DNA from: Muricea muricata
Taxonomy: Eukaryota; Cnidaria; Anthozoa; Malacalcyonacea; Plexauridae
Reading direction: 5' to 3'
Assembly: GCA_963855995.1 (NCBI GenBank)
Contig: OY979723.1
Coordinates: 3,415,001-3,479,000 of the forward strand
DNA length: 64,000 nucleotides
Below are positions 188 through 63,407 of the stretch, piece by piece (the first letter of the stretch is position 1; each line of letters begins with the position of its first letter). The translations under genes and the position numbers were made by a program. Under the pieces are notes generated by a model, which saw only the letters and a program-made list of their open reading frames with translations, made no database searches and was not told where the DNA came from.

Positions 188-3100
188 CTAGCAGCCATAA
201 AATTCCACCCTCATTGAGATATGATCATGCCAGGCTGTTGGGTGAACGCGAATGAATCTTGCCATGATTGCAAACGAAATGTTGTGATGAATAATCGAGT
301 TTTGATCACTGTTTCCCTTGAACTTCTAAGAAAACAAAGTGGAAAATTATTGTAAAGATATCAGCAATGCATGGTTGAATATTTACCTAAAGGCCTACCT
401 ACACGATACGATTTGTCGTGCACGATTCTTACTCTGGTATATGTGACTGAGTAAACACGCGTAAAAAACGTCAGATTTCAAATTTCGCCAGAGTAAAAAT
501 CGTATAGGACAAATTGTATCGTGTAGATAGGCCTTAATAAGGCAAACCAAAATTATCATGAAAATCACTATCGGCTACTACGATTGGCTACTCGGATCTC
601 GGAGCTATACGCATAAAGATTATATGGATTTTTTGCACGTTTCTATTTTATAACGTAACTCGTTGTTAAGGAATTGAATACATTTTTGCTGTATGATTTT
701 AACCGGCCTACCTATAAGACCAGTAATTTCGTTTAATGTCTCTTTAGTTTGTCAGTGTTCTAGATCCCATGCAATAATCAAATAGTTGCTTAGCTTTGAG
801 GTAATTTATTATTAATCCAGGCAAAAGTCGACAGTGCAGTACAAACTTCAGTTGAGCGTTGCTTGGTTTATCCTACCTTGACGATTTTGTTGACTTTGTA
901 AACATGAAACTGTTTTCCGTCATCGCCAAAAGATATTGTATAATTTTTCACAAACTGATCACGATCATATCGCCCCTGAGTGCTTATTCCTGTTATGATG
1001 TTACTTCGTCGAAAATCTACTTGTAGCCACTGGTTGAGATCATTTGTCTGCGATGACCAGGCCCCTCCTACTATGCTGTCATCTGGTTTGAAGTTTAGTC
1101 TACCATTGGCTGCCAGGTTTTTGTAATGCAATTCGCTTGATGCTCTGATTTGATCATCGGATATATTGCGATTCTCCATTCCGAGAGCCTTTGAATTTTC
1201 GCAATCTTGTAAAGAAGTGAAAAATCAAAATTAAAGTGCCTATGAAACGAAATTTGTCCAACTATTTACGATTGCATTGTAAAGATCGCTCAAAATGACA
1301 ACAACTTGGCTTGGATGAATATCTCTAACACTTTTCTTTCTGGAGATATATGTAACTTTATTTGACATGCCAATTACACAACTTATGACGCCAAAGTGCA
1401 TAACAGTTTTTCAATTGATCAAATGATCAAATCATTGGAGATATTGTGATTCTCTATTCCGAATAAGCCTTTGAATTTTTGCAAGCTTGTATAGATGTGA
1501 AAAGTAATGTTCCTGAGTTGATCCCCAGTGGAATGTTTTATAACGGTGGATAAAATTGCGAAAATGGTCAGCATGTACGCGTGCATGTATGTCTACCTCC
1601 TCCCAGGCGTTTTGCGTACGAGCATAAATAAGGTTCGCAATTTTTGCGCAAAATACACGCACATCTAGGTACGACTTTTCGCAGAAAACTCGTTGTCCTC
1701 ACTACGACCTTTAAAACACTATTGAAAGTTGGTTTATGTTTTCTTTTTCAAAAATAATTTGTTAACATATTTAAAGTGCACATGCAGTCATTTGGGATTT
1801 AATATATTTGTAAAAATTGGTGCATTTTATCATGGAATACAATATATTGTTCAAGAAGAAAACTTCACTTTCATGTTTTTTTTCACTTCTAAAGTTGAGG
1901 AGCTGACGTCATGATTTAAGTTAATGCAAATTCCATTGTCTCGTGCTTCTAAAATGACTTAAATGACGTCAGCTCCTCAACTTGAGAAGCCGAAAAAACC
2001 ATCAAGGTGAAGTTTTTCTTTTAAACAATATATCGCATTTCGTCTTAAAATGTATTAAATTTTACAAAATAATGTATTTAATCCGAAATGACTGCATGTG
2101 CACTTTAATACAGCGTCAGGCGTTGCTCCGGCACCGTTTTCAAGTGGTAGCGTAATATTAGTAAAGGAAATTACACGGTCCGAGAAGTATTAATGAAAAA
2201 TCACACGCGTGTTTGCTGAAATGTTTATAATACAAATATTTCGCCAAACACGAGTGTGATTTTTCATTAATACTTCGAGGAAAAGTGTAATTTCGTATTT
2301 ATATCATTTTTAAAAATTTTTCACCGATTTAATTATGTTTTTAGTTTTAAAAAATCCGGCGCCCCGCGGGGCTCGCGTTCCGTGCCGATTAATTTTTAAT
2401 CGGCACACTATGCCAATTAATGATTAATCGGCACAGCTCTTAGCCAATCAGAATCGAGTAAACAAATAAATGATATTATAACAGGAAATGAGGTGCCGCT
2501 ATCTAGGATATACCTTAATATTTACTGTCAACCAACATGGGCATTTTTTTATAACATACATTGCGAAATAATAGCGTAAATTTTTGAACTTGTTGCTTTC
2601 TATATTATGTTATGAAGAACATATATTTGAAAGTTAAAAAATCAATTTAAGTTTTGAAATCGGCCTTCAACCCAAGTGTAAACCTAATAATAAGAAGCTA
2701 ATTTTGAAGAGGGTTGAGATAGTTTGTCGTGGCATATAGACATGTTTGGAAAAATAAGACCAGTTCACCAATTTAGACTTCAATATTACTGTTTGAAATT
2801 GGAAAACAAAACGAAGTAAAGAAAATGTTGAGGGCTGTTGCAACATTCGCAATACTCGAGAGTATAGGACGAATCACAAGCAGGGTTCAGACGACAGCTA
2901 TTGCCCTCTTATTATCCATGATTTTACTGCCAATGTAATATTCGAACAGAAACAACGACTACGACTTCTGAGTACGCCATCAAATCCCGTAGACATTCTC
3001 GTACTCGCCGTCAAAGCTCTCTAATGATAAAACAGGGTTGAAAAGGACCGAGATTTCGAAAAACGGTTTTAAGTTTCGATCAATTATATGTCAAGAGATA

Positions 3101-6035
3101 CTTTAGGACTTCTCGACTATCGACACTGTGTACCTGTTTATCGACCGTTATTTTAGCTCCGATTTCACGCATGTCTAGCCCGCCAACAGCCCTTCCCAAA
3201 AGAAACGACTACGGAGGAGGTAGTAGCATGGATTATGTAACTAATAAAAAATTAGATTCGTGAAGAAAAATACAAACCAGGTAAAAACTCGTCCTGTTTG
3301 TTGGCCTATATATAAGAAAGTTAACAGAGTTCACATAGTGCGGTATTATGTTATTTGGCTTGCTTAATTACTTCAACATGAGTAGAACAATTCGTATAAT
3401 TAACAGCCCTTATCACCAGATAGCTGCATACCAGGACAGAGGTATTAAAAAAGTGCATGTCATTTCAAGTCTAGTTAAGTCATACACGTTCTAGAACTTA
3501 AAGAGGCATGATCAACTAAAATGCATTGCGTATTATACAACACGAATGATTTGGTATATACTGCAATTAATAGCAAGCGAAATTTTAAATTAACAATACT
3601 CTAGCTTGTTTTTCTTTCTACTTGCTTTTTGTGTCTAGTGTCAGTTTGGATTGTTTATTCAGACAATCTACCAACGCTGGTTGATCCAGCAGCAGAAACG
3701 ACTGCAAAATGTACGTGTCATTGTGGTTCATCATTTTATTCAAGTGGTTTTTAACGTTAATTTTATACTGTGAATTTCACTGTTTCGTGGAAGACGAAAA
3801 ATAGTTCAGTTTATCGCGGAAATACTTGCGTTTATATGTCCAATGAAATCATTTTAAATTTCTGCTACCTTTCAATTGACCTTTCTCAGTGAGAAAGAAG
3901 TAGATTTGCAATAGATTTGCAGAAGCAAAGTTCAGTAGAATTTTCTATACATGAAGGGAAGTGTTACGGGAGAAGTTTAATGGGAGAAATTCAAATTTTG
4001 ATAGTTTCTCTTACCGTTTTAAAAACTTGATAAAATTTCCATTCTTCGTTTGCGATGCTATTTTTATCTCTTTCTCGAGTTTTATTGCTGAGTTGGCAGT
4101 TTACTGCATATTTGCTTCTCTCTGATCTGTAGTTGAAACCGACACATGTTGATGTTTGAAGACATATCAAGGAGCATTCAACTTCACAATAAACTGCATG
4201 GCTGGATATAATATCCTCTTCTGGCAATGTGTCACCTGTTTTTGGAAATAGTCGATGATCATCACTTTCGTGTGTCTTAGTGTGACTATATACCGGTTAA
4301 TTAACATCAATTGAGCTGTTGCCGAAATATCAAATGCTGGAGCCCACCTGACTACTGTACGTACCTCAGTTGACAGGGCATATCTGGTCAAGCATGTTTT
4401 TAGCTTGCCGAGTGTGGCTCTGAACTCAGGAGCCACACTACAAGCACAAAGTTTATAATCGCAATAGTGTTTATGCCCTATGCAATGTTTAGCAAAGTAC
4501 GCAATTTTTTACTGTAGTAAAAGCAAAAAGTAACGCTTCAATTACCTAGGAAGCCAAAGTACTGACCAAAATTTTCAATTAAGTAGAAGTTTAGCCTGAA
4601 AATTTTTTCTTAGAATTGGAGAAATGGAAAATATACTGAAAGTACTACACTGAATAACTATGTAGTTAAAGAAAGGCTGAGAAAGAAAGGAACGATCGAA
4701 GTCAAAAAGTATTTATCATAGTCCACATGCATGACAAAAATTTTTCTGTTTTAGAATCATGTAATTTTTATGCGGTGACTATCGCAGTGCGATTTATTTT
4801 CGCAAAATGTCTTTTATTCAGCTTAACCACAGGGGCAGGGTCACCACAACAGCGTGAGCCAACTACTGTGGGCCCGTATCACCTATCCCACCCTGTCAAC
4901 TCTCCCTGTGGGAGGAGACCAGAGTACCCGGGGAAAACCCACGACTTTTAGCAGAGCGTTGACTATACTCTTCAAATGAGAACTGGGTTCAATTCCACCT
5001 CACGGGAAATCGAACTCGGGGCTTGGAGGTGAAAGGCGAGTGGTCTGACCACTTCACCACTGAAGCCCTATAAAATGTGATGAAAATGTGATGCTAAAGG
5101 GACTAGTGATCAGTATGCAGTCCCCCCTCTTTCCCTAGCCAACACAGCCGCTCTTTTAGCTTTTGTAGGCGTCTTCTTTCTACTAATTGTATTTCTCATT
5201 ATTTACATCCTGAAAAAAGTCTAATATTATGCGTTCTTAAATTAATTAAACACGGCAGTTAATTCTCAAAGGTCTATAAAATATATTAGAGTTTTAAATG
5301 AAACACCGACTAAATAATGACAACAAACTTGTGAAGTAATCTCAAAGCATCTTAATTAAATTCACGCGCTCTCCTACTCACAATGCGCGACACAGCTATC
5401 ACCTCGAGCAAAAATGCGCCCGCAGTGATATATTATGTATGTCCGCCAGTATTTCGTGAAATCGACATTAAACGCTGACGCATTTGTGCTCGCGCTAATA
5501 AATTCGTGATCGCACCAATAAATTTTTGTTTTTATATAATATGCCTACGCGTTTCGAAATATATTTGTGTTGCCCTTGTCAGCCAAAGTAGAAAACATCT
5601 TTTTAATCAGATATAAATACTCAGAAAGCTGCAAATTATGTCAAGATAATGGAGCCTTCAGCCGCTGTGTGTCTTTGGGGTCTCTTTATGAAATACATTC
5701 TGGTCCATTGTCAGCGATCATTCTGATTCATGGGTGAAAAAACCTTGAAATGATTTTCTCATTCAATCAAGACCGATAATAAGTCGATTGGCAATAATAT
5801 AATATCTCAATTGGCAATCAGCCCTGATTTCCTCCTTCTCTCTCACGTATAGTGGGGCTGTCAAAAAAGCCTTCACTTTTTTTGGTAAAATGAGATACTT
5901 ACCTTGGCCTGGAACTTTGGTAAAGTACATTTGATTTCTCACCGCGCCAGGTTGACTAGCAGCGATTGAGAAAGCAGCAAATTTCAACAAAAATAAATTC
6001 AAGATAATGATCTCTATATACTTCAACGAGCACAT
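188..6035 (-). CDS. Gene 1: secreted PAN-discoidin (F5/8 type C) protein
   Basis: Five-exon model, in transcript order: 5903-6035, 4015-4235, 3278-3305, 877-1205, 188-325. It totals 849 nt (282 residues plus TAG), with GT-AG borders and intron phases 1-0-1-0. Exon 1 starts at the ATG at 6033-6035 and gives a hydrophobic signal peptide, then YFTKVPGQG, the start of the PAN fold. Exon 2 carries the PAN/apple core (PEEDIISSHAV, C-x3-C-x5-C, CVGFNYRS, NCQLSNKT). The 28-nt exon encodes ANKQDEFLPG. Exons 4-5 form a discoidin domain (DDQIRASS, NQWLQVDF, ITGISTQGR, KNYTISFGDDGKQF, ending VEFYGC). Such domains bind glycans or membrane lipids, so a secreted lectin-like role is inferred. The cysteine found after the signal peptide in most paralogues (SQC) is proline here (SQPG). 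Intron 1 holds a SINE. Confidence 0.85.
390..534. mobile_element. MITE with about 28-bp inverted ends in gene 1 intron 4
   Basis: The left end reads AAGGCCTACCTACACGATAC and the right end is its near-perfect inverse (gtatcgtgtagataggcctt). A second inner inverted pair (ttactctgg / ccagagtaa) lies inside. It is about 145 bp and non-coding. The superfamily is not assigned. Confidence 0.65.
1769..2108. mobile_element. Foldback MITE with about 145-bp inverted arms
   Basis: The arm from about 1769 to 1911 (TTAAAGTGCACATGCAGTC, then a long stretch ending GAGGAGCTGACGTCAT) is repeated inverted from about 1961 to 2108, leaving a spacer of about 50 bp. Short open frames inside it are by-products of the arms. 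It sits in intron 3 of gene 1. Confidence 0.8.
2164..2460. repeat. Palindromic repeats in gene 1 intron 3
   Basis: An inverted repeat of about 55 bp (core GAAAAATCACACgcGTGTTTG) spans 2164-2295 with a short loop. It is followed near 2375-2460 by a second palindromic tract (gtgccgattaa / ttaatcggcac) ending in a CCAATCAGAATC motif often seen at MITE ends. No coding content is seen. Confidence 0.6.
4826..5068 (-). mobile_element. tRNA-derived SINE in gene 1 intron 1
   Basis: Read on the minus strand from 5068, a tRNA-like head has an A box (TGGTGAAGTGG) and a B box (AGTTCGATTTCC) at the usual spacing. A body with GGGTACTCTGGTCTCCTCCC follows, which resembles a central block common in animal SINEs (recalled, not searched). 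It is not a tRNA gene: the head is degenerate and continues into the SINE body. It is noticeably richer in GC than its surroundings. Confidence 0.7.
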
Positions 6036-11655: not shown

Positions 11656-14600
11656 TTAGCAACCATAAAATTCCACCCTCATCGAGATATGTTCATACCA
11701 GGCGGTTGGGTGAAGGCGAATGAATCTTGCCATGATAGCAGGTGAAATATTCTGACGAACAGTCGAATTTTGATCCCTGTTCCCCTGGAACTCCTGAGGA
11801 AATAAAGAGAAAAATAATTGTAAAGCCACAGTTAACAGTTTAACGGGACATAATGCAATCACTGGACTAATCTTTGAACTGGATTATCGACTTGAATTTT
11901 GGACTCAAGGCTCAACATTTTGTAATGTTTTCTCCGTTCGCTTTCAACCAGCCTATCAATGAAACTAGTATATGTAATTTCTTTAGCCTTTAATGATTAA
12001 CTAGTTCCAGTCCCGATCATAATAATAATTTGAGCTCAAATCCCCAATGGTATATGGTGTCAATCTATCAATTGCGATTTTTTTTAGAAAATGTCGTGAA
12101 GGCGAACTAAAACAAATTAGATGAGTAAGCAGATTGAAATAATAAAGTGACAAAACCGTTAAGAAATAGCTTTTATTAAAAAACTTAAAATGCATCAATG
12201 TCGTTCCCCGAGCCCACGATTCCTCTAGGCTAAAGAACAAGCAGAGACTCTGCGATAATCCATAACCGGACGCCCAGAATCTGAGCATTGTTTGTACTGC
12301 GCATGTATGAAAAGCAACAGCGAGCTGTCAATCTTTTCACCATGTTTGTTTAATTATGTTTCAAACATGAAAGTGTGCATTGAAAACGTGTTGGTAATCA
12401 AACAGGTTTTAATATGAAACATAAAACTCTCCTTCCTTCGCGTTGAATGATCGTGGACTCGGGAAATGAGATTGAGAATGCATAGTGAAGGTTCAAAATC
12501 GAGTCCCGTCCAAAATTGCAAGTGCAAACGCCAATGTTGCTGACGCGACAACTGTGATACAGCTGTTAGCTTTGCAATTGCGGGAACCACTGAATATTTT
12601 GATAAAATACAAAACACTGGTAATACCGAATATTGAAATCATCTTTATTTCTCAACGTTTCGACTAGTCTTCAAGGAATCTTTCGCAATTCGCAGACAGA
12701 AGCCTGAACTCAATTATGGCACGAAAGCATCTCTAGAACTGTCAATTTAATTTCAATTGATGTAATGTGGTTGTAACTAGAGCAATCGCTTTATATTTAG
12801 CAGCCAGCGTGCAATTTAATCCACTCCTGATGATGACTTCAAACGAGTCGAAACGTTGAGAAATAAAAATGATTTCAATATTCGGTATTACCATTGTTTT
12901 GTATGTTAGCTTTGCAGTTACACCTTAGATATTAAAGATTATTGACCGAGCGTGAGGTCTGTACCGTAAAACATCGGACTGAGGTTTTTTAGTACCGATA
13001 TTTCGCGGTACAGACCGAACAAGCAAGGTCAATATCAAACTGTTTATAATATGGCCCGCAGTCATTTTCAGAGTTAGTATACGGCATTCTGTACTTAAAT
13101 GACGTCGATCGTGGTTTCGTTAATTACAATACAAAAAAGTTGAACACGACAAAACTTTATTTCTTAATCATAAAGTTTGCAAACATGTAAGTAAAACATT
13201 AATTTTTGTTAATAAGTATATTACAAGCAGTAAAAAGTGCGATTAAAAACACGGGGAAAAAGCCCGGCTCTAATACGGAAATTTACAGACCACCGTCCAA
13301 ATACGGGTTTTACTGACGGCACGTCGACCAATCAGAATGCAGGAGTCTTTAAAGCCATATAATAAACGTATTTACACAGTTGAATTTTAAACAAGAACAT
13401 TGGTGTCTGTGGAAATGTTGACCTTTAAACATTTCTTTGGTGGGGGGGGGGGCGCGGGGAGGTGGTAAATAGGCTGAAAACACAGTTGAATATTTTCTTC
13501 GTAAAATAATTTTAACAACATCAGTGGTGATATTTCTCGGGAATCAAAAAGAAGGCAAACACAACACCCAAACGTTTTAAGACTACATTGTTTATGTTCC
13601 TGTCAGATTAAGTAATTATGTAAATACATATTGCTGGAAAGTATTTAAACTGAAGTCCCAGAGTTTCAACTCGTACCAGGCCATATCATGAGTGACGCAA
13701 AAGCAACATTAGCGCGTTCGGCTTTTCCAGTCGATTCATAAGATTGTATATTGTTTTTCTTACCTTAACGTTCTCATTGAGTTTAAAAGCAAAGAACTGT
13801 TTTCCATCGTTGCCGAAGGATATCGTATACCTTTTTACATGCTGATTTTCCTCAGATCGTCCTTGAGTGCTTATTCCGGTTATAATAGTACATCGTTGAA
13901 AATCTACCTGCAACCACTGATTAAGATCATTTAGCTTTGACGACCATGCCCCTCCTATGCTATCTGGTATGAAGTTCAATCTACCATGGGCTGCCCGATT
14001 TATGTAATGCCATTCGCTTGATGCTGTGATTTGATCATCAGATATATTGTGATTTTCCATTCCGAGAGCCTTTGAATTTTGGCAATCTTGTAAAGATGTG
14101 AAAAAATATCATTATACAGCTAGACCGCCGGTAGTGTTTTTTAATTGAATTAAACTGTGCATAAAAATTGCGTATGTCATGAGCATATGTCTGCAGAAAG
14201 TCCTATAAAAATAAATTCTCTTGGAGAAATACACAAACCTGATGAAAATCCGGTATGTTTTTCCACCTGTGAGGAAGTAAGTAAATTTTCAAAATGGAAT
14301 ACGATATAAATGATTTAAAAAGTATTAGGTTTACATTCCATCCTGCTTAATTACTTCAATATGTCCAAAAGTGTAAAAAAAGGTGTAAAATAAAATATAA
14401 AAGTGTAGAAGTGATTTTTAAATTCCACTTTTTTACAAGGTGCAATGTGAGTCATAAGCTTGAAGTGATTTACACTGATGAATCTCATCTCTGGCTTCAA
14501 GATTGCGTAATTGAATTCAAAAGAATGCTCTATCCGCTTCTAGATTTCAGCTGATCAATGGATATATTTGCCTTGTGTAAAAATGCTGGGTTCATCCCAC

Positions 14601-17600
14601 TCAAAAGCAGTAACCCGGAATTGAAGCATGCTTTGGAACAAAGCGAAAACTCTTAAAATTTTATTTTAGGCCATGTGTCCAAAATAACGTAAAATGAAAG
14701 ATCAACACAAAATAAATATCTAGCTCAGCTCCGACACGAAGGCACTTTGCAAAACGTAAACAGATATACGCACTGCAAATGTGTCCCACAAGGCTTTAAT
14801 CCTCCTTATTATTTCCAAAGCTCGATAAAAGTTCCATTTTTCTTTCGCGTTGCTCTCTTTTTCTCTTTCTCGAACTTTATTGCTTGATTGGCAGTTTACA
14901 GCATATTTGTTTGACTCTGATTTGTTGTTGTAGCCGACACATGTTGCTGTTTATATATTCATGGCTACCTGCATTATATGAAATTTTATATGGTTGTGTC
15001 AAAGCTCAATTTTTCTGTACTGCAATTGGACAAAAACCTATCACGTGCCGGTCCGCGATACTCCATTGCCTTTGCAACAACGCAACCGCTTCATAACAAA
15101 ACATCTATTGACCGGTTAACGAGAGAATGGGCGAGCTGCGCATGCGCGTCAATCGCCAAAAGTTTCGAAGTTCATTCTTTTATCTAGTTTTGTTTTCAAA
15201 GTTGACTTCAATAAGCGGTGAATTCAGGGCCGACACTAAAGCATTAATTGGGGGGGGGGTGTATATTCATATATTCACGTTCTGCCCGACGAATTTCTTT
15301 TGAAATCAGTTGTCATTACCGTTGATTTAAAAAGAAATTCGTCGGGCAGAACGCGAATATATGAATATGCACCCCCCCCCCAATTAACGCTTTAGTTTCG
15401 GCCCTGGGTGAATTATTCATGCTTTGACACACATACAATATAACAAAACTAGAGCATCGCCGAAAACAGTGAGTTTGTGGCCCCTTTGAGCTTGTTGTTA
15501 AACTCAGCTTCGCCTCGTCTAACAACAGCCTCTCGGGGCCACAAAACTCATTGTTTTCCTCGGTACCAGTAAATAAGTGATAATTGTACGCATTGGTTTG
15601 TCACAAAAAGTCCTCATAATTTTTTCCTTACCATTTTATAAAACATCCACTCTCCTTTTGAACGAGTTCTTCGATTTATTGCCCAAATTTTATTGCTGAG
15701 TTGGCAATTTAAAGCATACTTGTTTGACTTTGGTCGGTAGTTGAAGCCGACACATGTTGAAGATGGAACACATTGAAAGGCACAATCTAGTTCTGAATGG
15801 ACTGCATGACTGGATATGATGTCTTCTTCTGGTAATATGTCGCCTGGTTTTATTACGAAGAAAAAAAGGTGGCAATTAAAAAAAATGTGAATCACCAAGT
15901 TTTCTTGATCTTTAAATATTTGGACTAAATAAGTGAGCCTCAGAAGCAATTTTGGGGAGGGGCTATATACTGTATTCATGTATTTAGGTTCTGCATGACT
16001 AATTTATTTTGAAATTAGTTGTTATTAGAGTTGATCTCAAAATAATTTAGTTGGCCAGAACTCGAATTCATTAATATAAGCCCCCTTTAATATGCCCCCT
16101 GCTCAAGCTAGTGATATTTTGGCGTTTGAGGACATTCAATTGCAAACTAAAAAGTCGTCATGGAGCGTACAGTATGTTGGCTGTATAATTATAGTCTAAA
16201 CTCGAAAATAGTACAACCTTAGCAACCTTAGCAACCTTACAATAAATTAGCAATTATGCCATTCAGGTTTTTTATGCGAAGACACTTAAAGCAGGGCAAT
16301 ATGATATCATGCTGTTGTCATGGCACCAATGTTAATTTATCTTGAAAAAGTGATGATGACAAAGTCTTAAATTGAAATATGACATTGCCAAGAATTCAAG
16401 ATACACTTTTGATCAAAAGAAGACAATAATTTATGAGGATGAAGTGATTTTTGATTAGAATTAAGGGTTAAGCGCGTGTATGAGTATTATTAGTTATACA
16501 AGTGTTGCAGTGTTTTCAATATTTGTTTGGCAATACTTAGCAACCCTTCTCATTTTATTATTATGGCATCTCTTTTGAAATGAATACAATAAACATTGCT
16601 TTGCACTCCCCTAAGTATTGAAAATAGTGTATTAAGATTGGGGTTTCAAATATTATCCAATAAAAATTGATTTTCAAGAGAATCACAAATTGAGATACCA
16701 TTAAAAGGTATCAGAAGTACTCAGGGTACTTTCCAAGCTATTTTGGAAATGTTCTGATAATTGGATTAGCATAAACGAAAAAACTGAGTATAAGGTCACA
16801 AAGAAGAAGAGCATGTTTTGAACTTGTGAATAGCTTTTATCTGTGTAATCCACATCAAATAGACATGACCTTGGATTCTATCAGCTGAATTGCAAAAAAT
16901 CAATACGTGTAACATTTTGTAGTGTTTGCACTTTCTTTGAATGAAAAACTGTATTTGAAGAGGATAACTGAAAACAGTGGGTGCACACTAACAAGTGTGG
17001 GTCCCTCAATTCAGTGTTATCTACCCTACAAAGCATATTCAGCATACCTTATGAAAGTTTGTACTGTGTGGTATTACATGATTGCTTGATTTAGATACTA
17101 CTACGCGAGATTTTATGGTTCACGCATGCAAAATACTAAAGCAACGACACAAAATTATATGGCTACAAATCTAATTTTATCATTACGACATTTTTTACTG
17201 TCTAAGACAAAGAGGATCGAAATCATTTATTCCCAAACATTTTCTTGGCACAGACAGAATTTTTCAAAGCTACTTGTTATTTTTACGGTTACACAGCTGC
17301 ATGTGTGCTGTGATAAAAACTATGGAATTTTTCTGTACGACACTTGCCCTGATCTCACACTTTTGTAAAAATTTTCTGACTTTTAAAAGATGATTCTATC
17401 CACCTACTTTAACTAACAGCCATTCTAAACTCCCTGCTTGGTTATGCAATATTATAGAACAAAACATAGTAAACATCAGCTATGAATCACGTTCATAGGT
17501 CAATAAGATGGATTGCAAAAAATTAATACATGCAAAATCTTGTAGTGTTTGCACTTGAATGAAGAACTGTATTTGAAGAGAATAATAGATAACATTGAGT

Positions 17601-18843: not shown

Positions 18844-19161
18844 CTCACTTTAAACGCCAGCAATGAATATTTTCGCCTAGAAGTGAAGTTCTTAGCAGAT
18901 GGATAATGTGTGTTTAGTTAGCAACCGTAGCAACAGCCTAAAGTGTCACAAGTTAAGTAGTTCAAACCATTTTCTCTGAATTTACATAATTAAGAAGCTA
19001 GAGCTTTATTTCATGCTAAACTCCCTGATGGGGTATGGAATACTATAGAATAAAATATAGTAAACACCAGCTATGAAGCACGTTTATAGCTACTTGTTAT
19101 TTTTACACAGCTGCATGCGTGCTGTGATAAAAACTGTGGAATTTTTCTATGCGACAGTTGC

Positions 19162-19245
19162 CCTGATCTAGCACTTTTGTAAAAATTTTCAGATTTTTAA
19201 AAGATGATTCTATCGACTTACTTTAACTAACAGCCATTCTAAACT
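19162..19245 (-). pseudogene. Decayed exon 1 copy (d) with GC donor
   Basis: Same structure as copy (a): GCAAC-type donor change and loss of the signal-peptide half. The shared lesions show that (a) and (d) come from one duplicated defective unit. Confidence 0.6.
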
Positions 19246-19791: not shown

Positions 19792-19891
19792 CCTGATCTG
19801 GCACTTTTCTAAAGACCTTCTAGTTTTTAAAAGATGATTCTTGCGTCCTACTTTGATTAAGAGCCATGATGGAAGCAGAGAATTCAGTCAT
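19792..19891 (-). pseudogene. Decayed exon 1 copy (e) with 30-nt deletion and a stop
   Basis: It is 100 nt against 130 nt in the open copy. Thirty bases of the signal-peptide core are lost in phase, and a CAG to TAG change interrupts the later part. The GT donor is kept. A secretion signal is unlikely, and no product can reach the PAN domain. Confidence 0.7.
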
Positions 19892-23120: not shown

Positions 23121-23216
23121 GAGAAATAAGTAGAATTTCAAAATGGCATACGGTATAATTTATTTAAAAAGTATTAGGTTTACATTCCAGCCTGCCTAAT
23201 TACTTCAAAATGATCT

Positions 23217-27570: not shown

Positions 27571-27576
27571 AACATA

Positions 27577-46740: not shown

Positions 46741-49700
46741 AGTTAAGTAAACTAAGATAGTGTGTATTTTGCCATAAAAGGCATGCACTGCAAGCATTTA
46801 GCAGAAAGTGAGAACTTTCTGCAGTGAAGACAAACTAAAGCAACAATGGTAGGCTATTGTACATTTTTGCAATTTGAGTGTTTACCACACCGAAATTTAC
46901 GGAAATTTTGATTGGTGTTTAATTGATCAGACATTGGTTGTGATAAATCACTCTGGACAACCCGCATGATTTCATTCTGGAAGTCAATTGCATTAAAAAC
47001 ATTGAAATGATTGCTCTTCTTTGGGTGTTGCACTGCTGAGTGGACCTTCGCGTTGCTTACTATTCTGTGGCAAAATGAAGACGGTTAATCAAATACTAAT
47101 TTTAAACACGGGGGACAAATGGGGCACGACAACATACTCAAATATTATGATAGCAGCGAAATTAAGGAGGTTGAGTTTGCAAATCATATTTTACTGAATA
47201 CCGGCAGCGACTATAGACGGCTGAGCACTTTTATTGGCCAAAATATGGAGTTGACTGGCTGGGATACTGGTAGTTTATTGAGTAATGAGACATACGCGGA
47301 CACCTAAAAACAAGCCAAATGAAGTCAGCCACAATAAAAATATTTTCAGTGTATAGTCCCATCCAATAATAGTGAGTTGATCAAACAAAACAGAAGCAAT
47401 AGCTCAGTTTCACTAACGTGATACTTTTAGCGCTTGGTGGCAAACTCTAATTAGTATAAATTTCAGGTGACTATTCATTTTTCTGCATTCTGATGGGTCA
47501 AGATTCAGTGTCTCTTAAGTGATAGTCACTGGCTAGTGACTGGCTAGTGACTATAGCTTTTTTCTATAAAGTAATAAATTTGAAGTGAATTTTTATAAAG
47601 TTTTGTTGATTATTATTTTCAAACACATGCAAATTTACACTAAAACAATTAGTCGCCTCGGGCTCGGTAAATATATAGGCTTGTAATCAGCTTGCTTTTG
47701 GCGACTAATTGTGGAATAGAAACCAGTGGCAAAGCCAGCCCGACATTTGGTCATGCAAATGCAAATTTTTCTGTATTTATAAACCGTATAAGAAACAATT
47801 TCTAAAGGAATGAATAATGATAATGATTTAAATTTGCCAAATTACCAAATTGTCGGGCTGGCTCCGTTTCTGTTAGAAACAAGGTATGATAATATCGAGT
47901 ATAGTATTCATCATAGGTATTGACCTGATCTTGGGTGGCACGTATATACAATTTAATGAAATTTGCTCTCTTCCACAAGGCAGAAAAAGGCAATATGTGT
48001 AAACTTTACCACCAATTAGCGTTGTCGTATGTAAAAGTATTGAGCGAAATTCACTTGTATTATATACCTGGCACGAAAATTCCGTAGATAATTTATTTTC
48101 GGGGACCTTTTCAAAACAATGTGAATGAGATCATGAAGTTTTTTTCATATCGGTTTGTTTTTAAATTACTTTTGAGATATTTTTACACCAAACATGCAAG
48201 ATGTCTGTAAAAATAGGAACAGGGGTGACCTTTCGTAACAAAAATTAAAAATATCAAATGACTTATACAAGTACACAGAAGCTTGAAAAGGGATTTTCGG
48301 CATGGTCTTTCAAATGGGCTTATATGTCCATACCCAGTACATAAAAATTTGCCAAGCATTGGACAAAAAAGAGTAAGCTGTAAAGATTATTTGATCGATG
48401 TTGAAAATTTAAGTGCAACAACAACTTACGGAAACTTTCGTAATTCAAATATTTAAAATATTTATCGCATTCCAAACATCAGGCTTTAATTATTGTATTG
48501 AAGCCATATTCTACCACATCCTTGGGTAGATAGAAAGTACATAATGAAGTTTAGAACAATTTTAGTCATTGCTTTTAAATGTCTGCTAAATTTTCGAATT
48601 CATTTTCTTACCATTTGCAAAGCTTCATAAAACATCCACTTTCCTTCCGCGTTGCCTTGTTGACCTCTTGTCCGAGTTTTATTACTGAGTTGACAATTCA
48701 AAGCATATTTGTTTGACTTATGTCTGTAGTTGAAACCGGCACATGTTGATGTTTGAAGACATATCAAGGAACATTGAACTTGAGAATGGATTGCATGAAT
48801 GAATATAACGTCTTCTTCTGGCAAAGTCTCGCCTGTTAATAGAAATAATTGGTGATGACATTCCAATGTTGAATTTGTGTTCGAACATATTTTCATGCAT
48901 AAGTTATAACATTTTGGATCAACCAAAGTACATAAACGCTTCCGAAAAGTTACATAACAATTTAGGAACGTATTTTTGATCGCAATGACGTCAAACTAAT
49001 AAATATCATAATAAGAAAACTTCTATGTACTGTTCGTCATTTTTTAAGAAAAACGTTCAGCAACAGTCTGATATAGTATGTGAACTGGTCCAGTATGCAC
49101 CAAGCTTAGAACACGACTTGCGTTTTCAGAATAAACTGGTTCCTTACAAATGCAAAACAAACCGTTTTAAAAATTCGTACATTCCATCGTCTATTAAGAT
49201 CTTTAACGAAAACTGTTGAATAGTAGTAAATTTTTACATCTAGATAGCTAAAGTTTTCACTCTTATAGATTTTACATAATCAATCAATTACTTATTAAAT
49301 GTAAGCATAATACTACATAGTTACATTTCTAATGCTTGTAATATTTGACGTATTTCAATTCTTGTAGTTGCAAAGTCATTTATCTTTGATAAACACAAAC
49401 ACATAATTATTGAATGAATAAATTAATAAGGATATTTACATGCTGTTTCTAGTTTGTTGGCCGTTTATGAAATTCTTTTTGCTCGTCATTGATAAAGCAT
49501 TTCTATACCTTTGAATCGCATAAGTCACATTTTGGTCTCTTAGATTTAGATGAATAATTGCTTTGTTTAATGAGATTCCTCTACGAAACTCATTACGAAT
49601 GTGCCGCTGCGATCGCCATTATTAAAGTGTGGAAAAGCAACAAAAAAATTAAAAACGCAATCTTCGGGTAGGTAGATGTTTCTTCCATGTACTTAAGAAC

Positions 49701-50230
49701 AGCAAAATTGATAAATTTCATTTTGGTGCATTCTTAATTGAATCCTAAATGTCGTAAACCTACATCTTGAACTGTATACTGCCTGCGTGGGCGCTGTACG
49801 AGATCAAGACATAATGCCATACAGAAATAACTACATTATAAGTGGGGATTCATTTTAAAACACTCTAATAATATAAACCTCGGAAGTAATTTATAATGTT
49901 CATATGCATTATTACTGTTTGTGTCAAGAACTTTTTAAACTAAAAAACTGATGTTATAAAAGTGAAACTTTCCCAGCACACATGATGAATTATTATATAG
50001 GAGAGTAATAATATCTTTGGCATAAAGGAAAGTTATTTGTCCATATAATATAAATAATAACAAATGCAATGATTTTCATCAAGTAGTAGATGGCCCTTAC
50101 CCTGACATGGCACTTTTGTAAAGTATTTTTCACTCTTCAAAGATGATTCTTCCGGTCTGCATTGAGTAAGAGCGTCGAGCGAAGTAGAAAAGAATAACAA
50201 CAGTAGATTTACGGCAATGGTTGTCATCAT
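46007..50230 (-). CDS. Gene 6: secreted PAN-discoidin protein
   Basis: Exons: 50101-50230, 48612-48832, 46704-46731, 46298-46617, 46007-46150. They total 843 nt (280 residues plus TAA), phases 1-0-1-0. Signal peptide MMTTIAVNLLLLFFSTSL with TQC. PAN: PEEDVIFIHAIHSQVQC, CAGFNYRHKS, NCQLSNKTRTRG, close to gene 4. Microexon: DNKQTELQPG. Discoidin: NDQITASSKYNNN, NQWLQVDFQRS, ITEISTQGRGRHGQ, ending SMRVEFYGCFV. The discoidin half is nearly the same as gene 7, whereas the PAN half is close to gene 4. Intron 1 holds a LINE tail (49012 to about 49410). Confidence 0.86.
47718..47876. mobile_element. MITE with AAAGCCAGCCCGACA ends in gene 6 intron 2
   Basis: GCAAAGCCAGCCCGACATTTGGT is inverted at 47848-47870 (ACCAAATTGTCGGGCTGGCT). 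A smaller inverted pair, CAATTAGTCGCC / GGCGACTAATTG, lies just before it at about 47648-47712. Confidence 0.6.
49012..49410 (+). mobile_element. 5'-truncated LINE tail in gene 6 intron 1
   Basis: The frame at 49025-49219 ends VPYKCKTNRFKNSYIPSSIK and then stops. This is the conserved C-terminal end of CR1/L2-type reverse transcriptase ORFs (RTNRFKNSFIPxxIRL, recalled). The gene 4 intron lacks the block, so it inserted in the gene 6 lineage, antisense to the gene. Confidence 0.7.
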
Positions 50231-51081: not shown

Positions 51082-51854
51082 AGTTAACCTCTTGTGCTTC
51101 CCAAATATACACATACTTAATTACGCTTAATTGTAATACACATAGAAAGCAATTTTATTCCAGTGTGAATTATTAATGCTTTTGCGTCTCAAGAAAGACA
51201 TGTTATAATAATGAATTCATTTTATTTTCATGCAATAAATTTTATAATACAGTGTTTGGATTACTTTGCCTGCTCATGGACAATGTAAATTGCCCCAAAA
51301 AAGCTCAAGACTATTTTAAAACATTGATTGTGGCTCAATCTTTATCACCAGGCGCTCATATAAAGTGAAGGTAAAAACAATACTTCTCAATGCTTATCGT
51401 AGTGCAAATTATATTTGAAACAAGAGGAACTATATTTATGGCGGTGTTCGCCCATATGAATAATTTAGAGCATCTTTTTATCACGGAAACCGTTAACGCT
51501 GATAATCACAATGCTATAATCAACGGTGTGTATATATAGCTTATTCTCAAATCTTATTTATCATTTAAACTATATTAATAGAAGTCATTTCTTAAAACTT
51601 ATTTTCCAATTTCCATCATTTTCTTGTTCCATTAACCATCAACTGAACAAGCCTGATACTTACGACACACAGAAAAAGTGTATTTTTTGCATAATGATAT
51701 CGCACATTAGCTTCATTATCTATTTTCAGTAGTCGCATTGCTAAACTTCCAAGCTCATATGGAATGTTATTTAAATTATAGCCTTGTGTTATTCACAAGG
51801 TGTCTCTCGATGTTTTATGACAGACATGATTTCAAAATAGTATATGACACTTAC

Positions 51855-51977
51855 CCTCACCAGATACTTTTGCAAAGTATTTCTGTTTGATGAAAGACGT
51901 CTGCATTTACTGGCAATGATTATTGAAATAGAGAAAATTAACAAAAGTAAATTTATCTCGAGAATAACTTTCATCAT
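51855..51977 (-). pseudogene. Orphan exon 1 with 10-nt deletion
   Basis: It matches gene 7 exon 1 (57563-57695). The signal peptide MMKVILEINLLLLIFSISI is intact, but ten bases after SKCR (the QEES codons) are missing, so the frame shifts before the PAN start and the phase no longer fits the PAN exon. The GT donor remains. It could still encode a short secreted peptide, but not a PAN protein. Confidence 0.8.
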
Positions 51978-53973: not shown

Positions 53974-56900
53974 CTATTTTCTTTGAATTAACACCGATGA
54001 AGTTAGACCACTCTGAGAGAAACAACCATAAAATTCCACTCTCATGGAGATATGTCCTGCCCAGGTTTTTGGATGAACGCGAATGAATCTTGCCTTTACA
54101 GCAGGTGAAATATCATGATACACAATAGAATTGACGTCGTAATTTCCCTGGAAAACCTAAAATCAAAGCAAAAATCACACTGATGGGCTAATTGAATCTT
54201 TCAAATCTAGTTAAGAAAGCATAACCACATTTATCCTGACAGAGTGGCCTATACAGAAACAATTGCTATTTTGTTTTACAATAGAGCTCTGCACTGTTCA
54301 TCTTACCTTAACATTCATACCCTCGGTTTTAAAACTCTGAAAATTACTTTCATCATCGCTGAATGAAACCGTGTAACTTTTGACAAACTGCCCATGTCGT
54401 CCTCGTCCCTGAGTGCTTATTTCTGTAATTATGGTGGATCTTTGAAAATCCACCTGTAACCACTGGTTCTGATCGTTTGTCTTCGCAGCCCACGCCCCGC
54501 CGTTTTTATTGAAATTCAATCTCGCATTGGGTGCCCGATTATTGTTATTGTACTTGCTCGATGCAGTGATCTGGTCATCGCTTATTTCACCATTTTCCAT
54601 TCCGAGAGCTTTTCCATTTCTACAACCTAAACACTCTAGCGAATGAAAGTTTTGACATTAATTCCTTACTGGTTCGAGGACATACCACTTAACACGAAGT
54701 AGAAATACAAACCTGGTTGTAATTTTGTTTGCTCGTTGTTCTAAAAACAAGTTAAATAATGTTAGATCATTTGTGGTTTGCCATAAAATGCTGCATGGCC
54801 GTGGTTCACTCCCACTGACAGCAAGCGAGCGCTTTCTTTATAGCAAAGACAAATTAAACACGACAAGCCCATGGTTTTTGATAATTTCGTTATTAGGCAC
54901 ATCCTGAGAACCTAGTGGATATCTTAATAGGCATCGAACTCAATCTATTGGTTTATTCACTGACAAAATTTGGACAGTGCACAGTCAGCTCGTCCTTATT
55001 CTTTATATTTGAATAGTATAGGGAACTAAAGATTCAGTCCAGTTCTGAAAGTCAATTGCGTTAAAATGCTGTCTGCTATTATTCTGGTATCTTCTCTTTA
55101 TTTAGTGTTCCGTGGCAATGCTAAGAGGTTATAATGAAATCTAGCAATTCAATATGCCAACCACGCTATTACACGAGATGGTTTATATGTATCTGTTAGT
55201 ATCTATCATATTCTAGCGATCATGGCCTCGCTCGATGATCATGAGAAACGAAATCGAAAGCAAAATCGTCAAGAAAATTTTGTAGCAGAAAAATATTATA
55301 AAATAAGTACAGACAATCAAATTTAACTGTTTTTCACTTTCAATTATGTAGTTAAAATTAGTTATATAAGATTATTAGTTATAATATAAACTGTTCACTT
55401 AAAAGCATGAAAATACAGTTCTAGCACGAAAATAAAAGTAGTGCCTGTAGCATTTTGTAATGTGGGCACAGTATAGCAAATAGGCAGAAAAGGGCGCTAA
55501 GCAGTGCCGCGTTATTTTTATAAATCTTACTGAATACTGGATGCAGTCAGCTAGATCAGCGTTGTTGTTAGTTAGGAAGAAAACGGGACAGGGATGGAGG
55601 TCTTGTAATAAAATGTACTGTATATATAATGCAGTATATGCTAACCTTGCCTGTCCGTGCATTCCCTATGTGCTATGGTCATTATTCGTTCAGGTCCTCG
55701 TAGAATAACACCATTTATTGCAATAGCTGACGAAGTTTAGAAGTTAGTAGTTATGACGATTTGTGGAATTTTAGTCTATGTTTCTTACCATTTGCAAATC
55801 TTTATAAAACGTCCACTCTCCTTTTGCACCAGTTCGATATTTATTCTTTTCTTGTGTTTTCTTGCTCAATTGGCAGTTTACAGCATATTTGTTTGACTTT
55901 GATCTGTAGTTGTAACCGAAACATGGTAACGTTTGAAGGCATTTTAAAGAACATTCAACTTTGAAATGGACTGCATAACTGGATATATCTTCTTTGGGTA
56001 ACGTCCTGCCTGTTTTTGCAAATATTCGATAAACGATAAAATGATAAGTGGAATTAAGGTGGTGATAGATCTGTTTTATTTTTATTACGATTCACCACAA
56101 GGCAGGCAGTGTCGCTGCAACAGGATGTTCCAGTTGCTGTGAATCCGTACGGTCTGGATTTGTTGAATTTTTTGTACTTGGCGGAAAATTCTCGAAGGAC
56201 AAGAGAGATCAACTACACGAATTAAACTTTCGGTTTCGGGGGCGAGCTAACTGCACTGATCTGTATAATAAGCAGTTGCATCTTGTGAAGCCAACAAAAA
56301 TATAACAAATTTAGTGTATCAAGATGGCGGAGAATCAACAGTTCCAAAAATACTTTACTAAATATAAATAAATATACTTTATTTTGATAGAAAATGAAAA
56401 TTCTGTTCAAGAGATTACTCTTCGATTACATGGGTGAGATAGGAAAATTGCACGCGAGCTATTTTAATTTTAGAAATTTAAAAAAAAACAAGTTCTAAAA
56501 CTCAAAATACAAACAAAACGTTATTTTTATGTTTCGATGCACGCTTTTTGATACTTCGTACTGTCAAGTGAGAAGATAATACGAAAATACAAGCAAAAAA
56601 TCGGTCGGAGGCAATACTAAACAAAATTATCGCGGCTAACACCATTCTATACGTACAAGGAAGCCAAAAGACAATATACAAGCCATTTAACAATAAATTT
56701 AATAATACAGTGTTTTAATTACTTTGACTGCTCATGAATATGTATGTATGTAAATTACCATCCAAAAAGCTCAAGGATATTTTGAAACGATTATAGAGTA
56801 GTTGCTCAATCTTTATCAACAGGCGCTAATATAAAGTGAAGGTAAAATAATGCTTCTCAATGCTTACTGTAGTACAAATTATGTTTAGAATAAGAGAATT

Positions 56901-57695
56901 ATATTTATGAGCGAACACGCATGCATGTGAATAATTTAGAGCCTTTTTCGATCGCGGAAACCGTTAACGCTGATAATTACAATGCTATAATCAACGGTAT
57001 ATGCTATATAGTTTTTTTTTCAAATCTTATTTATCAATCAAACTGTATTAATAGAAGTCATTTCCTAAGAATTATCTTCCAATTTCCAAAATGTTATATA
57101 AAACTTTGGAAATTAATTTGATAAACAGTTTTTAAAGAAACCTTTTCTTGATAATTACAAGCAATAAAGTGCTATCGTCTTCAAGTATATTTTTAATTAA
57201 ATCTCACCTATCGTACAAATGATGTCTATATAATGTAATACAGAAACAACTCTACAATATAAGCTAGCGAAGATTTATTTTAAAAACTGTAAGCGTTGCA
57301 TGAGTACAAGTATTAGTTTAATTGATGTCGTCATCACTTTCTTGTTCCATTAACCATCAACTGAGCCTGATACTTACGACACACTGAGTGTATTTTTTGC
57401 ATAAGGATACCGCAAATTACATTATCTATTTTCAGTAGTTGCATTGCTAAATTTCAAAACTTATACATGAAATGTTATTTAAATTATAGCCTTGTGTTAT
57501 TCACAAGCTGTCTATCGATGCTTTATAACAGACACGATTTCAAAATAGTAGAAGGCACTTACCCTGACCAGGCACTTTTGCAAAGTATTTCTGTTTGATG
57601 AAAGACGATTCTTCCTGTCTGCATTTACCGGCAGTGATGATTGAAATAGATAAAACTAACAATAGTAAATTTATCTCGACAATAACTTTCCTCAT
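53974..57695 (-). CDS. Gene 7: secreted PAN-discoidin protein with extended C-terminus
   Basis: Exons: 57563-57695, 55789-56009, 54713-54740, 54307-54626, 53974-54156. They total 885 nt (294 residues plus TAG), phases 1-0-1-0. Exon 1 starts MRKVIVEINLLLLVLSISI with GKC. The PAN domain is the most divergent (PKEDISSYAV, ECSLKC, PCFGYNYRSKS, NCQLSKK, then TGAKGEW). Microexon: NNEQTKLQPG. The discoidin part is near-identical to gene 6. The stop used by gene 6 after FYGCFV is absent, giving a 15-residue tail (FSQSGLTSSVLIQRK). Its upstream region lacks the TATAAAT found in genes 4-6. Confidence 0.84.
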
Positions 57696-59250: not shown

Positions 59251-61433
59251 TCAAGCGCGGCATCCGTAAATTTCGACCCTCAAGGCAATACGCCCATACC
59301 AGCCAGTTGGATGAATGCGAATAGCTCGTGCAACAAAAGAAGGCACGATCAGGTTTTGCACAATAGAATCTTTGTCACTGTTTCCATGGAACACCTAAAA
59401 TTTAGGCAAGTTGAAAAATGAGAATTTTTGTTGGCAAGTAGATAACGAATAAACGTCATTTTAAATACACAGGTGATTGTAATTTCCGACTGGTCAACCA
59501 CTTCAGATTATTGCACAATAATCACCTTATTCGTAATCCTGACCTTATTATTCAAAACGGCGGCCTGTTTATGAGTGCAAAACAGAACAAAATGCCAAAA
59601 AGTTATCATTAAAGGAAAATGCCAATATACTTTTTATCGGCTTATTAATAAAAACCTTGGAATTGTAACATCCGTTGTTAATTTTTTGTAGCATACTTAG
59701 TTCCTGGACGAATGACATTGGCCATCCGCCATCTTGTTTTATAATTAGGTCTATTTTAGTGATGTCACAGCCTAGACTGTATAAAACTTGCTGTGAATTA
59801 GTTAAATCTCAATGAAATGTTCTTCAACACTTACGTAAAAAGTATATACATACAAATTCTGTTGGATTTCAACATTCAACATACTTGTTAATCGCTTCTT
59901 AAAGAGAAAAGACAATTAACCAGTCTGTGACTTCATGGGGTTTTTGAGTTTAAAGATGAGTAGTGCCTTTGTGTTTCTTAATTGTCCTTCAGCATTTTAG
60001 AGACTAAGCATGTTATCAAAAAATTAACAACGCATTTACAGTTACTTTAGAGGTTCTTGTCAATAAGCCTATAAAAATATATTGCTGTTTCCCTTTAAGC
60101 CAAAAGAAGCTTGCGGAGAAATCATGTTAGTGTTAAAAAATATGTAAGTGTGCATGTAATCGTGGTTGTGTTTTACTTGGTTAATAATATAAAAGGAACG
60201 GTATCTGGACTGTGATTGGTCAATTTCAGTGCAGTTAACCTTGAACAGAAGCACAAAAAATTGTTACAACAGTGCGAAAATCTGTAACAACGGTCCAAAA
60301 ATCTGTAACAACAGAAGAACCAATCAAATTTGACGTAGGAAAATGGGAGTGCAAATTTTCTCAACAAAAAAAACAAACTTAGCGGGTGAAATTTGAGAGC
60401 GATTGCGGTCAAATTTGGCTGGGTTTTTAACGAACTCTATTTATTTAAATAATATGCATCACTGTTGTGAAGTTCCGATTACTTTACTCGTATTTATCAC
60501 AACGTTACGGGCGTAAATTTAAAGTTTTTAAGGAAAAAGTGAAGGGGAGCGATCACGATGTAAGTACAGTATTGCGTGTGTTGTTGTTTCGAATATTTCC
60601 TTTTCGTCCTGCGGACTCGTGGAATTTTGGCGACATTGAAAAACTCAAGGGTGCATGTTAATTCAAAATTGCACGAGAAACCAGGCTATTACCTACAAAT
60701 AGGCTCAATTGACCAACAGACGTCTTTTCATCAAAATATACTTCTAAACAACGACTGAACAATAGAATGTTTTCACGAATTGCAAAAAACGTTTGCGTAA
60801 AATCGGATATTTCAGCCATCCTCGGAAAACGAACCGTGAAATATATAATCATGAAGAATTTAATTTTTTGATTGTCGTATTGAGTGCAAAGTATCAGTTG
60901 CACAAAAAAAAATTGTTGCATCGCTTTATTTGTCATGTTTTTTAGTCGAATAACAAGCTAACTATAATATTAAAGCTCATATACGTAATTTGCAAACATT
61001 AATGCATTTGAGCAGAACAGAAATGGTAAGTCAAGAAACAGTAAACGAACTGCCTTCCATTTCTGCTATCTTGGCGGCAAAAGAATAATAATAAAAAAGT
61101 TTACCGTGCACTTTACCTTAACTATGCCCCCGACTTTGTAACTAACGTAACGACGTCCAGACTTTGGCCCAAAGACTGAAATAGTGTAACCAGTAACATA
61201 CTGATCAGCATCATGACGTCCTTGAGTACTTATGCCCGTAACGATGGTATACCGTCCAAAATCCACTGCAAAATTTTGATTGCGATTATCATAGCGCGCT
61301 ACCCATCCTCTTGGTCCGTTCAATCTTGCGTAATCTGTTCCATGAGTGCTCCCAGATAAATAGCTTGTCGCTGCAAGCATATGATGGGGAATTTTACCAC
61401 TTTCCATTCCAAGAGCTCTCGAATTTTTACATC
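59251..61433 (-). CDS. Gene 8: divergent discoidin unit, 5' exons not located
   Basis: Two exons are clear. 61117-61433 (phase 1 start, 317 nt) encodes GCKNSRALGMESGKIPHHML, NRNQNFAVDFGRY, VTGISTQGRHDADQ, YTISVFGPKSGRRY. 59251-59394 (48 codons) encodes FHGNSDKDSIVQN, ARAIRIHPTGWYGRIALRVE, IYGCRA and a TGA. Both ends of the discoidin domain (GC...IYGC) are present. No 28-nt microexon, PAN exon or signal exon is visible up to the window end. A phase 1-1 exon at 63276-63407 could lie upstream in its place. It is the most divergent member in sequence. Confidence 0.75.
60170..60700. repeat. Dispersed repeat, larger copy of the 8095-8250 family
   Basis: It starts TAATATAAAAGGAACGGTATC followed by TGTGATTGGTCAATTT and ends near TTCAAAATTGCACGAGAAACC. 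Three short tandem repeats (AAATCTGTAACAACxG) lie at about 60275-60315. It is in gene 8 intron 4. Confidence 0.55.
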
Positions 61434-62027
61434 CTGGTAAAAACAAAAATAGTCATGACTACATGCAGCAGTGAAATATTGTTGTGACCGCGGTGAGCGC
61501 AAGGAAAAAGTCGAACATTACAACAAATAGTACCAAGACAATTACTTCCCTAATAGCATTGGATGCTAACTCTCGTGATTTTTGCATAAACTTAATAAAT
61601 TATCGCATTTTCGAATAACTATGCATTGGCGCTTATTGAAAATTGCGGTATTTGCTTAACTTATGATTGGTTTATTAACAATTATAGCATTGCGCACGAG
61701 GTGATTATCGCGGATAATTATGCCATAAATGCAAATCAGAACAAATTGAATTAACTCCTTGTCATCCGTCTTTGACAGACGATGTAACAAAACACAAGCG
61801 ATGTTCTACAGCTTACTAAATTGAATACAATTTTCTCTTCACATAATTTAATTTTAAAAATGATTTATAAACCTCTAAATGTCTTACTTTTCAAGCTTTC
61901 CAGCGATATTCATATCAGCTATCTATATATAAACAATATACACGCAAAGATATCCGATTCAGACTTCCAGACACATTTTTGTATTCAAATGTATTTTATT
62001 TGTATTTTCAATATTTTCAAAATCAAT

Positions 62028-63275: not shown

Positions 63276-63407
63276 CTATGATACAGTTTTCGGGTCCTAA
63301 CGACCCGTAGGGCGCTTTATTCGTATGTTTTGACAGGTGAAACATGATATCTTCAGGTAAATTTGACTGATTTCGCTCACGACAATTACGGCATGTTGAA
63401 GAATTCA
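63276..63407 (-). CDS. Possible exon upstream of gene 8 (phase 1-1, 44 codons)
   Basis: It is bounded by an acceptor (CTACAG at 63408-63413) and a donor (GTAAAAAT at 63275 and below), open throughout: NSSTCRNCRERNQSNLPEDI, MFHLSKHTNKAPYGSLGPEN, CIIG. It has a CxxC pair and a third Cys. The symmetric phase 1 would splice directly to the gene 8 discoidin exon at 61433. The domain is not recognised. It may instead belong to a gene beyond the window. Confidence 0.4.

Follow-up and report, generated by a model that had tools for sequence, protein, structure and literature searches.

PAN/Apple and discoidin (FA58C, F5/8 type C) domains follow each other in the secreted cnidarian protein Polydom/SVEP1 of Hydractinia, Hydra, and Nematostella, as given in an excerpt of PMC12549020. 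According to this excerpt Polydom is a large multidomain protein which also comprises vWFA, EGF, Sushi, HYR, pentraxin, CUB, and other domains. In Nematostella the fibrinogen-related protein (FREP) family is described as vastly expanded, and several of its members belong to the set of mature cnidocytes (PMC12549020). For the sea urchin Sp185/333 genes, an excerpt of PMC5103432 reports clustered similar genes which were diversified by duplication, deletion, and recombination. PAN beside F5/8 type C as well as clustered recombining gene families are thus already known. Here we describe an array of small PAN-discoidin genes in the cnidarian Muricea muricata, found in a window of 64,000 nucleotides (contig OY979723.1; C8:3415001-3479000 of the 453-Mb genome) and in its surroundings. 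The genealogies of the signal, PAN, and discoidin exons of this array conflict with one another, and many units are pieced together from three cassettes. We favor a family of small proteins, encoded in the germ line, which are probably soluble and secreted and combine three exchangeable exon cassettes, with secreted lectin-like recognition as the most likely role, and assign this reading a probability of about 0.6. A stand-alone PAN-discoidin array, cassette mosaicism, or a PAN exon with varied tails was not found described among the best-ranked papers of the literature searched, a collection that leaves out most subscription journals, and none of their titles concerns PAN-headed fibrinogen-like genes.

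The window contains seven units on the minus strand, in each of which a signal exon is followed by PAN, a 28-nt linker, discoidin-a, and discoidin-b. The introns have the phases 1-0-1-0. The first of them splits a codon behind its first base, at the end of the signal exon; the PAN exon and discoidin-a close in phase 0 and the linker in phase 1. The linker was recovered in all seven window units having a full PAN exon, and six of the seven can be read as an open frame from ATG to stop (units A, 282 aa; B, 276 aa; E, 282 aa; F, 293 aa; G, 280 aa; H, 294 aa). The exon order, the phases, and the linker of the original prediction, which had been made from the window sequence, were borne out by this exon reading, and its six complete frames of 276-294 residues were exact. 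Its count of at least eight PAN-discoidin genes was too high; seven are present, plus two discoidin units (D and I) without PAN.

We then examined C8:3300001-3559000, a region of 259 kb which includes the window and contains 0 N. The array spans about 195 kb; all four main exons are present in 14 of its units, which occur in both orientations. Seven of these units are situated left of the window (L1, L4, L5, and L6 on the plus strand; L2, L7, and L9 on the minus strand), and the discoidin-only units L3, L8, and R1 also lie outside the window. The claimed head-to-tail arrangement holds inside the window but not across the 259 kb, where the four-exon units point both ways; a purely head-to-tail array was consequently rejected. 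The 28-nt linker is recognizable in 12 of the 14 units, the exceptions being L2 and L7. A complete open frame including the linker is present in 10 of the 14, that is in L1, L4, L5, and L9 in addition to the six window units, where for L1, L4, L5, and B one signal exon was picked among several. Units C, L2, and L6 appear broken. In a second cluster, at C8:4.43-4.50 Mb, a discoidin exon comes behind each of four PAN relatives.

The nucleotide identity was compared exon by exon across the 14 units (13 rows for the signal exon and for discoidin-a). Units E and G share 95% identity in PAN versus 66% in discoidin-a, and units B and F 94% versus 66%, whereas G and H are 98% identical in discoidin-a and only 73% in PAN. 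Unit L5 combines a signal exon like that of L1 (91%) with a PAN exon like that of L4 (94%) and a discoidin-a exon like that of G (98%). Likewise, L6 has a signal exon similar to those of E, F, and G (88%), while its PAN and discoidin-a exons resemble L1 (94% and 89%). When the clade of one cassette was forced on the data of another, approximately unbiased (AU) tests rejected it in 10 of 11 cases, with p values from 7.6e-5 to 7e-120. The edges of the homology blocks are situated in noncoding sequence. G and H share a block which takes in the last 56 nt ahead of the linker exon and runs on to about 1.0 kb beyond the stop codon; the PAN block of E and G includes flanks of 177 nt on the upstream and 262 nt on the downstream side of the exon; and the signal-exon block of the same pair includes 318 nt of upstream flank. 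As the blocks stop within the flanking introns, the breaks made by recombination, conversion, or segmental duplication lie in introns 1 and 2.

When the genome was searched with protein E, its PAN part was matched at 74 places at least (138 of 643 candidates were scored). As tail we took a same-strand exon up to 6 kb downstream of the PAN relative. Among the 74 listed relatives 18 have a discoidin tail, 32 a fibrinogen-like tail, six a D8C tail, and 18 none; no relative has two kinds. All 18 discoidin-tailed relatives are located on C8, 14 in this array and four in the second cluster. The 32 fibrinogen-like tails are distributed over C2 (15), C11 (seven), C4 (five), C1 (two), and C3, C5, and C7 (one each), and the six D8C/uromodulin-type tails over C1 (five) and C8 (one). 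Widening the tail window to 15 kb changed these counts little (18 discoidin, 34 fibrinogen-like, seven D8C, and 15 none of the 74 listed). The PAN exon at C2:29.71 Mb closes in phase 0; the exon behind it, which also opens in phase 0, matches Fibrinogen_C (32.9 bits). Behind the PAN exon at C1:13.45 Mb there is a match to D8C_UMOD (36.8 bits); this copy has a disrupted frame. The relatives of one PAN exon have at least two alternative tails and probably a third.

The original prediction had named a lack of profile matches as one of two observations that would speak against it, the other being transcripts which assign the PAN and discoidin exons to separate genes. All six window proteins and four further array proteins exceed the cut-off of F5_F8_type_C (PF00754), with scores of 91-109 bits and profile positions 1-127 covered in each of the 10. 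PAN_1 (PF00024) exceeds its cut-off of 21.4 bits in seven of the 10 proteins (four of the six window proteins and three of the four others). A (17.9 bits) and H (18.6 bits) stay below the cut-off and L1 is not listed at E<=0.01; by sequence, these three are clearly related to the others. Both domains were thus matched. They are common in the genome (at least 153 matches listed for F5_F8_type_C and at least 148 for PAN_1); even so, that they occur together in order and in phase in 14 units is not due to chance. By sequence, the nearest solved structures are the C domains of coagulation factors VIII and V and the neuropilins.

In the six window proteins the Kyte-Doolittle hydropathy is 1.58-2.45 for the N-terminal segment and 0.43-1.32 for the later maximum, and none of the six showed a second hydrophobic segment. 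Because the N-terminal score exceeds the later maximum, the array products are likely to be soluble secreted proteins. The array, the two domains, and the N-terminal hydrophobic segment support well the earlier claim of a local, duplicating, and probably secreted PAN-discoidin family. The median pairwise ratio of nonsynonymous to synonymous substitution (dN/dS) is 0.44 for the signal exon (60 of 78 pairs usable), 0.42 for PAN (85 of 91), 0.28 for discoidin-a (70 of 78), and 0.30 for discoidin-b (84 of 91). These medians are below 1, and the frames are therefore supported as coding sequence. Within the discoidin domain the loops equated with the three spikes of the factor VIII (FVIII) C2 domain, 24 alignment columns in all, are more variable than the other 129 columns (mean entropy 1.34 vs 0.83); an excess of this size was reached by none of 152 circular shifts.

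From these observations the following mechanism can be proposed. Cassette 1 would consist of the upstream flank and the signal exon, cassette 2 of the PAN exon (phase 1-0), and cassette 3 of the linker, the discoidin exons, and the 3' flank. Ectopic recombination, gene conversion, or segmental duplication among array members would break introns 1 and 2 and pair the cassettes anew. The PAN exon could be joined in frame to any tail starting in phase 0, because it is bounded by a phase 1 and a phase 0 intron. In the protein, the tail would bind glycans or surface proteins through its variable loops and the PAN head would provide protein-protein contact or multimerization. Mucus, mesoglea, or secretory cells may be the site of action. 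The lectin-like recognition role is a best guess, drawn from the known binding roles of such domains. The discoidin, fibrinogen-like, and D8C tail classes all include lectin-like or microbe-binding members, which makes secreted recognition likelier than a purely structural role.

Several points weigh against this reading. The splice sites were set by consensus, so the joining of the exons is modeled, and secretion was judged by a crude hydropathy scan, in which the signal window of unit G (1.58) is little above its later maximum (1.32). Not every pair is a mosaic: in L4-L5, L1-L6, and L2-L7, PAN and discoidin lie together within a single homologous block. The forced clade was not rejected in one AU test, that of the signal data with E and G constrained to group (p 0.06), and the clades for these tests were picked from the other cassette after the identity tables had been inspected. 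No tail was seen within 6 kb of 18 of the 74 PAN relatives, and a search upstream of the 74 listed relatives as a control yielded eight discoidin and three fibrinogen-like exons, which is as expected since the genes have tandem neighbors. The sequence behind the PAN exon was read at base level in one fibrinogen-like and one D8C case, the latter being the frame-disrupted copy. The pooled dN/dS of the closest disjoint pairs, both sets of which include the broken units L2 and L6, is 0.63 for PAN (five pairs) and 0.59 for discoidin-a (four pairs), and where individual recent PAN pairs exceed 1, the ratio depends on two to three synonymous changes. Positive selection as a general feature is consequently unsupported, with no significant signal. 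The greater variability of the loops is also expected under weaker constraint. As to the variable recognition or adhesion role put forward originally, cassette shuffling, variable discoidin loops, and lectin-type alternative tails argue for it and the pooled dN/dS argues against strong claims; the role is inferred.

We considered four other explanations. The array proteins could be extracellular-matrix or adhesive proteins binding collagen, proteoglycans, or surfaces, the array then serving dosage or tissue-specific isoforms instead of foreign recognition. The overall purifying selection across the array exons would fit such proteins, as would the factor VIII/V C domains and neuropilins as nearest structures, and Polydom, an extracellular-matrix protein, has adjoining PAN/Apple and FA58C domains (excerpt of PMC12549020). 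However, no vWFA, pentraxin, Sushi, HYR, collagen, EGF, or other extracellular-matrix domain was found at E<=0.01 in the 10 array proteins, and the turnover of cassettes and the several broken copies also speak against a matrix function, which we consider rather improbable. Still less probable is a function as cargo of stinging cells or venom glands, with secreted PAN, discoidin, and fibrinogen-type proteins directed against prey. An excerpt from a table of cerianthid venom proteins includes F5_F8_type_C and Fibrinogen_C proteins (PMC7460484), but likeness of domains to venom lists is weak evidence.

The mosaicism could also be an artefact of assembly or of haplotypes, since repetitive arrays are easily mis-assembled, as an excerpt on Sp185/333 points out (PMC5103432). 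The region of 259 kb is free of N, though, and the partner identities range from 66 to 98% with block edges at differing intronic positions, which would be hard to obtain via collapsed haplotypes; we regard an artefact as very unlikely. Least probable of all is an allorecognition or self/non-self locus. Tandem, mosaic, lineage-expanded families are typical of such loci, but the PAN relatives are spread over several chromosomes, none of the six window proteins has a second hydrophobic segment, and the Pfam scan of the 10 proteins found no immunoglobulin (Ig)-like domain.

Exchange of cassettes in a secreted recognition family may be accompanied by a choice of first exons. There are five signal-exon copies ahead of PAN in each of L1, L4, and B and at least two in L5, with a spacing of mostly 0.4-1.2 kb (about 870 bp in L1). 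ATG, open frame, and GT donor are retained in three copies in L1, two in L4, one in B, and one in L5. The tandem signal exons ahead of single PAN-discoidin bodies are situated at C8:3314938-3318534, 3352510-3355843, and 3377998-3378982, and those ahead of unit B at 17343..19891 (-) of the window (positions in the window are numbered from its first letter, here and below); of these five copies only 18843-18714 is intact with a GTAAGT donor. An orphan copy is located between units G and H (51852..51977, minus strand), and a further, stop-bearing copy at C8:3375437. The tandem copies may be alternative promoters or first exons, or debris of local duplication. We put forward only tentatively a combinatorial secreted recognition system, consisting of tandem alternative first exons, a phase 1-0 PAN head, and ligand-binding tails (discoidin, fibrinogen-like, or D8C) re-assorted between loci by intronic recombination. 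If true, it would create head-tail and expression-tail combinations over evolutionary and possibly population time.

The complete window units, all on the minus strand, have the following coordinates. Unit A (188..6035) consists of the signal exon 6035-5903, PAN 4235-4015, linker 3305-3278, discoidin-a 1205-877, and discoidin-b 325-188. In unit B (11656..18843) the signal exon 18843-18714 is followed by PAN 15843-15632, linker 14266-14239, discoidin-a 14086-13764, and discoidin-b 11793-11656; an extra partial PAN exon is present at 14950-14813 (-). Unit E (31815..35585) comprises signal 35585-35456, PAN 34117-33897, linker 32961-32934, discoidin-a 32830-32505, and discoidin-b 31958-31815. The exons of unit F (39305..44590) are signal 44590-44461, PAN 43107-42887, linker 40067-40040, discoidin-a 39955-39636, and discoidin-b 39487-39305, and those of unit G (46007..50230) signal 50230-50101, PAN 48832-48612, linker 46731-46704, discoidin-a 46617-46298, and discoidin-b 46150-46007. 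Unit H (53974..57695) has its signal exon at 57695-57563, PAN at 56009-55789, linker at 54740-54713, discoidin-a at 54626-54307, and discoidin-b at 54156-53974.

Three further minus-strand units of the window are defective or incomplete. Unit C (20576..25771) shows the same exon plan with an unmended frameshift within discoidin-a near 22748. Unit D (27589..28383) is a remnant without PAN, with a stop in the signal exon and truncated discoidin exons containing stops. Unit I (59260..61434) has discoidin exons only (discoidin-a about 61434-61123, discoidin-b 59391-59260); no PAN exon was detected upstream of it in a search up to C8:3500000, and the signal-like matches upstream are weak and chance-like, the best one at 63743 (E 0.036) and the rest at E 0.35 or worse. 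The original prediction let the array end at 63407. This position coincides with no recognized exon and the frame there has no Pfam match at E<=0.01; a PAN exon of unit I near 63407 was rejected.

Between units E and F a 3.3-kb element-like stretch (35961-39303) contains inverted repeats of 232 nt (93%) around a 46-bp minisatellite, and one arm of the inverted repeat ends immediately beside the stop codon of unit F. The minisatellite has 17 register copies (36690-37666) and is open as a repetitive plus-strand frame of 227 aa. More inverted-repeat pairs, possibly small DNA transposons, are found at 62050-62991, 15225-15406, 41524-41680, and 12603-12908. An intact D8C/uromodulin-type exon (63 bits) with no detectable PAN is situated inside the array at C8:3343293-3343547 (+).

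Elsewhere in the genome, the fibrinogen-like family is very large (153 matches counted), with clusters at C2:29.67-29.90 Mb, C16:2.8-4.45 Mb, C11:4.70-4.75 Mb, and others. The clusters on C2, C4, and C11 are PAN-headed; no PAN relative on C16 is among the matches listed. At C1:89.98-91.67 Mb there are near-identical, widely spaced copies of another PAN type near discoidin exons (loci L011, L013, and L014). These Pfam matches were not counted in the family, as the PAN exon differs in sequence. At C8:4022001-4028000 (L047) a PAN exon is followed by transposon-like frames, judged by eye, which we take to resemble a THAP/Harbinger-type transposon, and at C2:47172901 (L051) by frames judged by eye to be transposon-like or unrecognized. 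One exon at C1:100068659-100069087 (L048) is a fragment of a GFP-like gene; 68 aa of it were searched against the PDB, and the best matches were a large-Stokes-shift fluorescent protein, a GFP-like nonfluorescent chromoprotein, and a red fluorescent protein, names borne by coral-type fluorescent proteins. This is in keeping with a cnidarian genome but lends it indirect support only.

If the favored reading of exchangeable cassettes in a secreted recognition family is right, the array is a compact natural case of module-level exon shuffling which is still readable in the DNA. It would also be a testable model for diverse secreted binding proteins in an animal without adaptive immunity. The nearly matched proteins, with the same tail and a different head or the reverse, form a set for binding assays.

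How does the array compare with known systems? The F5/8 type C domain is common by sequence to the array proteins, factor V/VIII C domains, neuropilin b1/b2, and the discoidin lectins, and its first and last Cys are kept in all 13 aligned rows. Unlike in coagulation factors and neuropilins, no further domain of the coagulation or receptor kind occurs in the array proteins. The spike loops are polar in most aligned rows, with L1 as an exception (longer, aromatic-rich first loop), whereas the FVIII C2 spikes carry bulky hydrophobics; binding of phosphatidylserine therefore looks unlikely. The Hydractinia Alr genes encode transmembrane proteins with Ig-like extracellular domains, from which the array proteins are set apart by a single hydrophobic segment (six window proteins) and by lacking an Ig match (10 proteins). 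PAN-headed fibrinogen-like genes differ from the mollusc Ig-FREPs. The FREPs, which are expanded in cnidarians, and the family described here have in common a large number of members, a C-terminal domain of lectin type, and an N-terminal part that can be exchanged, and PAN relatives in this genome do head fibrinogen-like tails; the window genes, in contrast, end in a discoidin tail, and the Pfam scan of the 10 array proteins showed no fibrinogen-like domain. Sp185/333 proteins differ from PAN-discoidin proteins. As far as the excerpt on them goes, the likeness lies in clustered, duplicating, and recombining similar genes; there, short tandem repeats flank the genes, whereas here it is exon cassettes that are swapped, by way of introns. 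Polydom, as excerpted, shares with the array proteins PAN/Apple beside F5/8 type C in a secreted protein; unlike in Polydom, the PAN-discoidin pair of the array stands alone behind a signal exon, in proteins of 276-294 aa, and is tandemly amplified.

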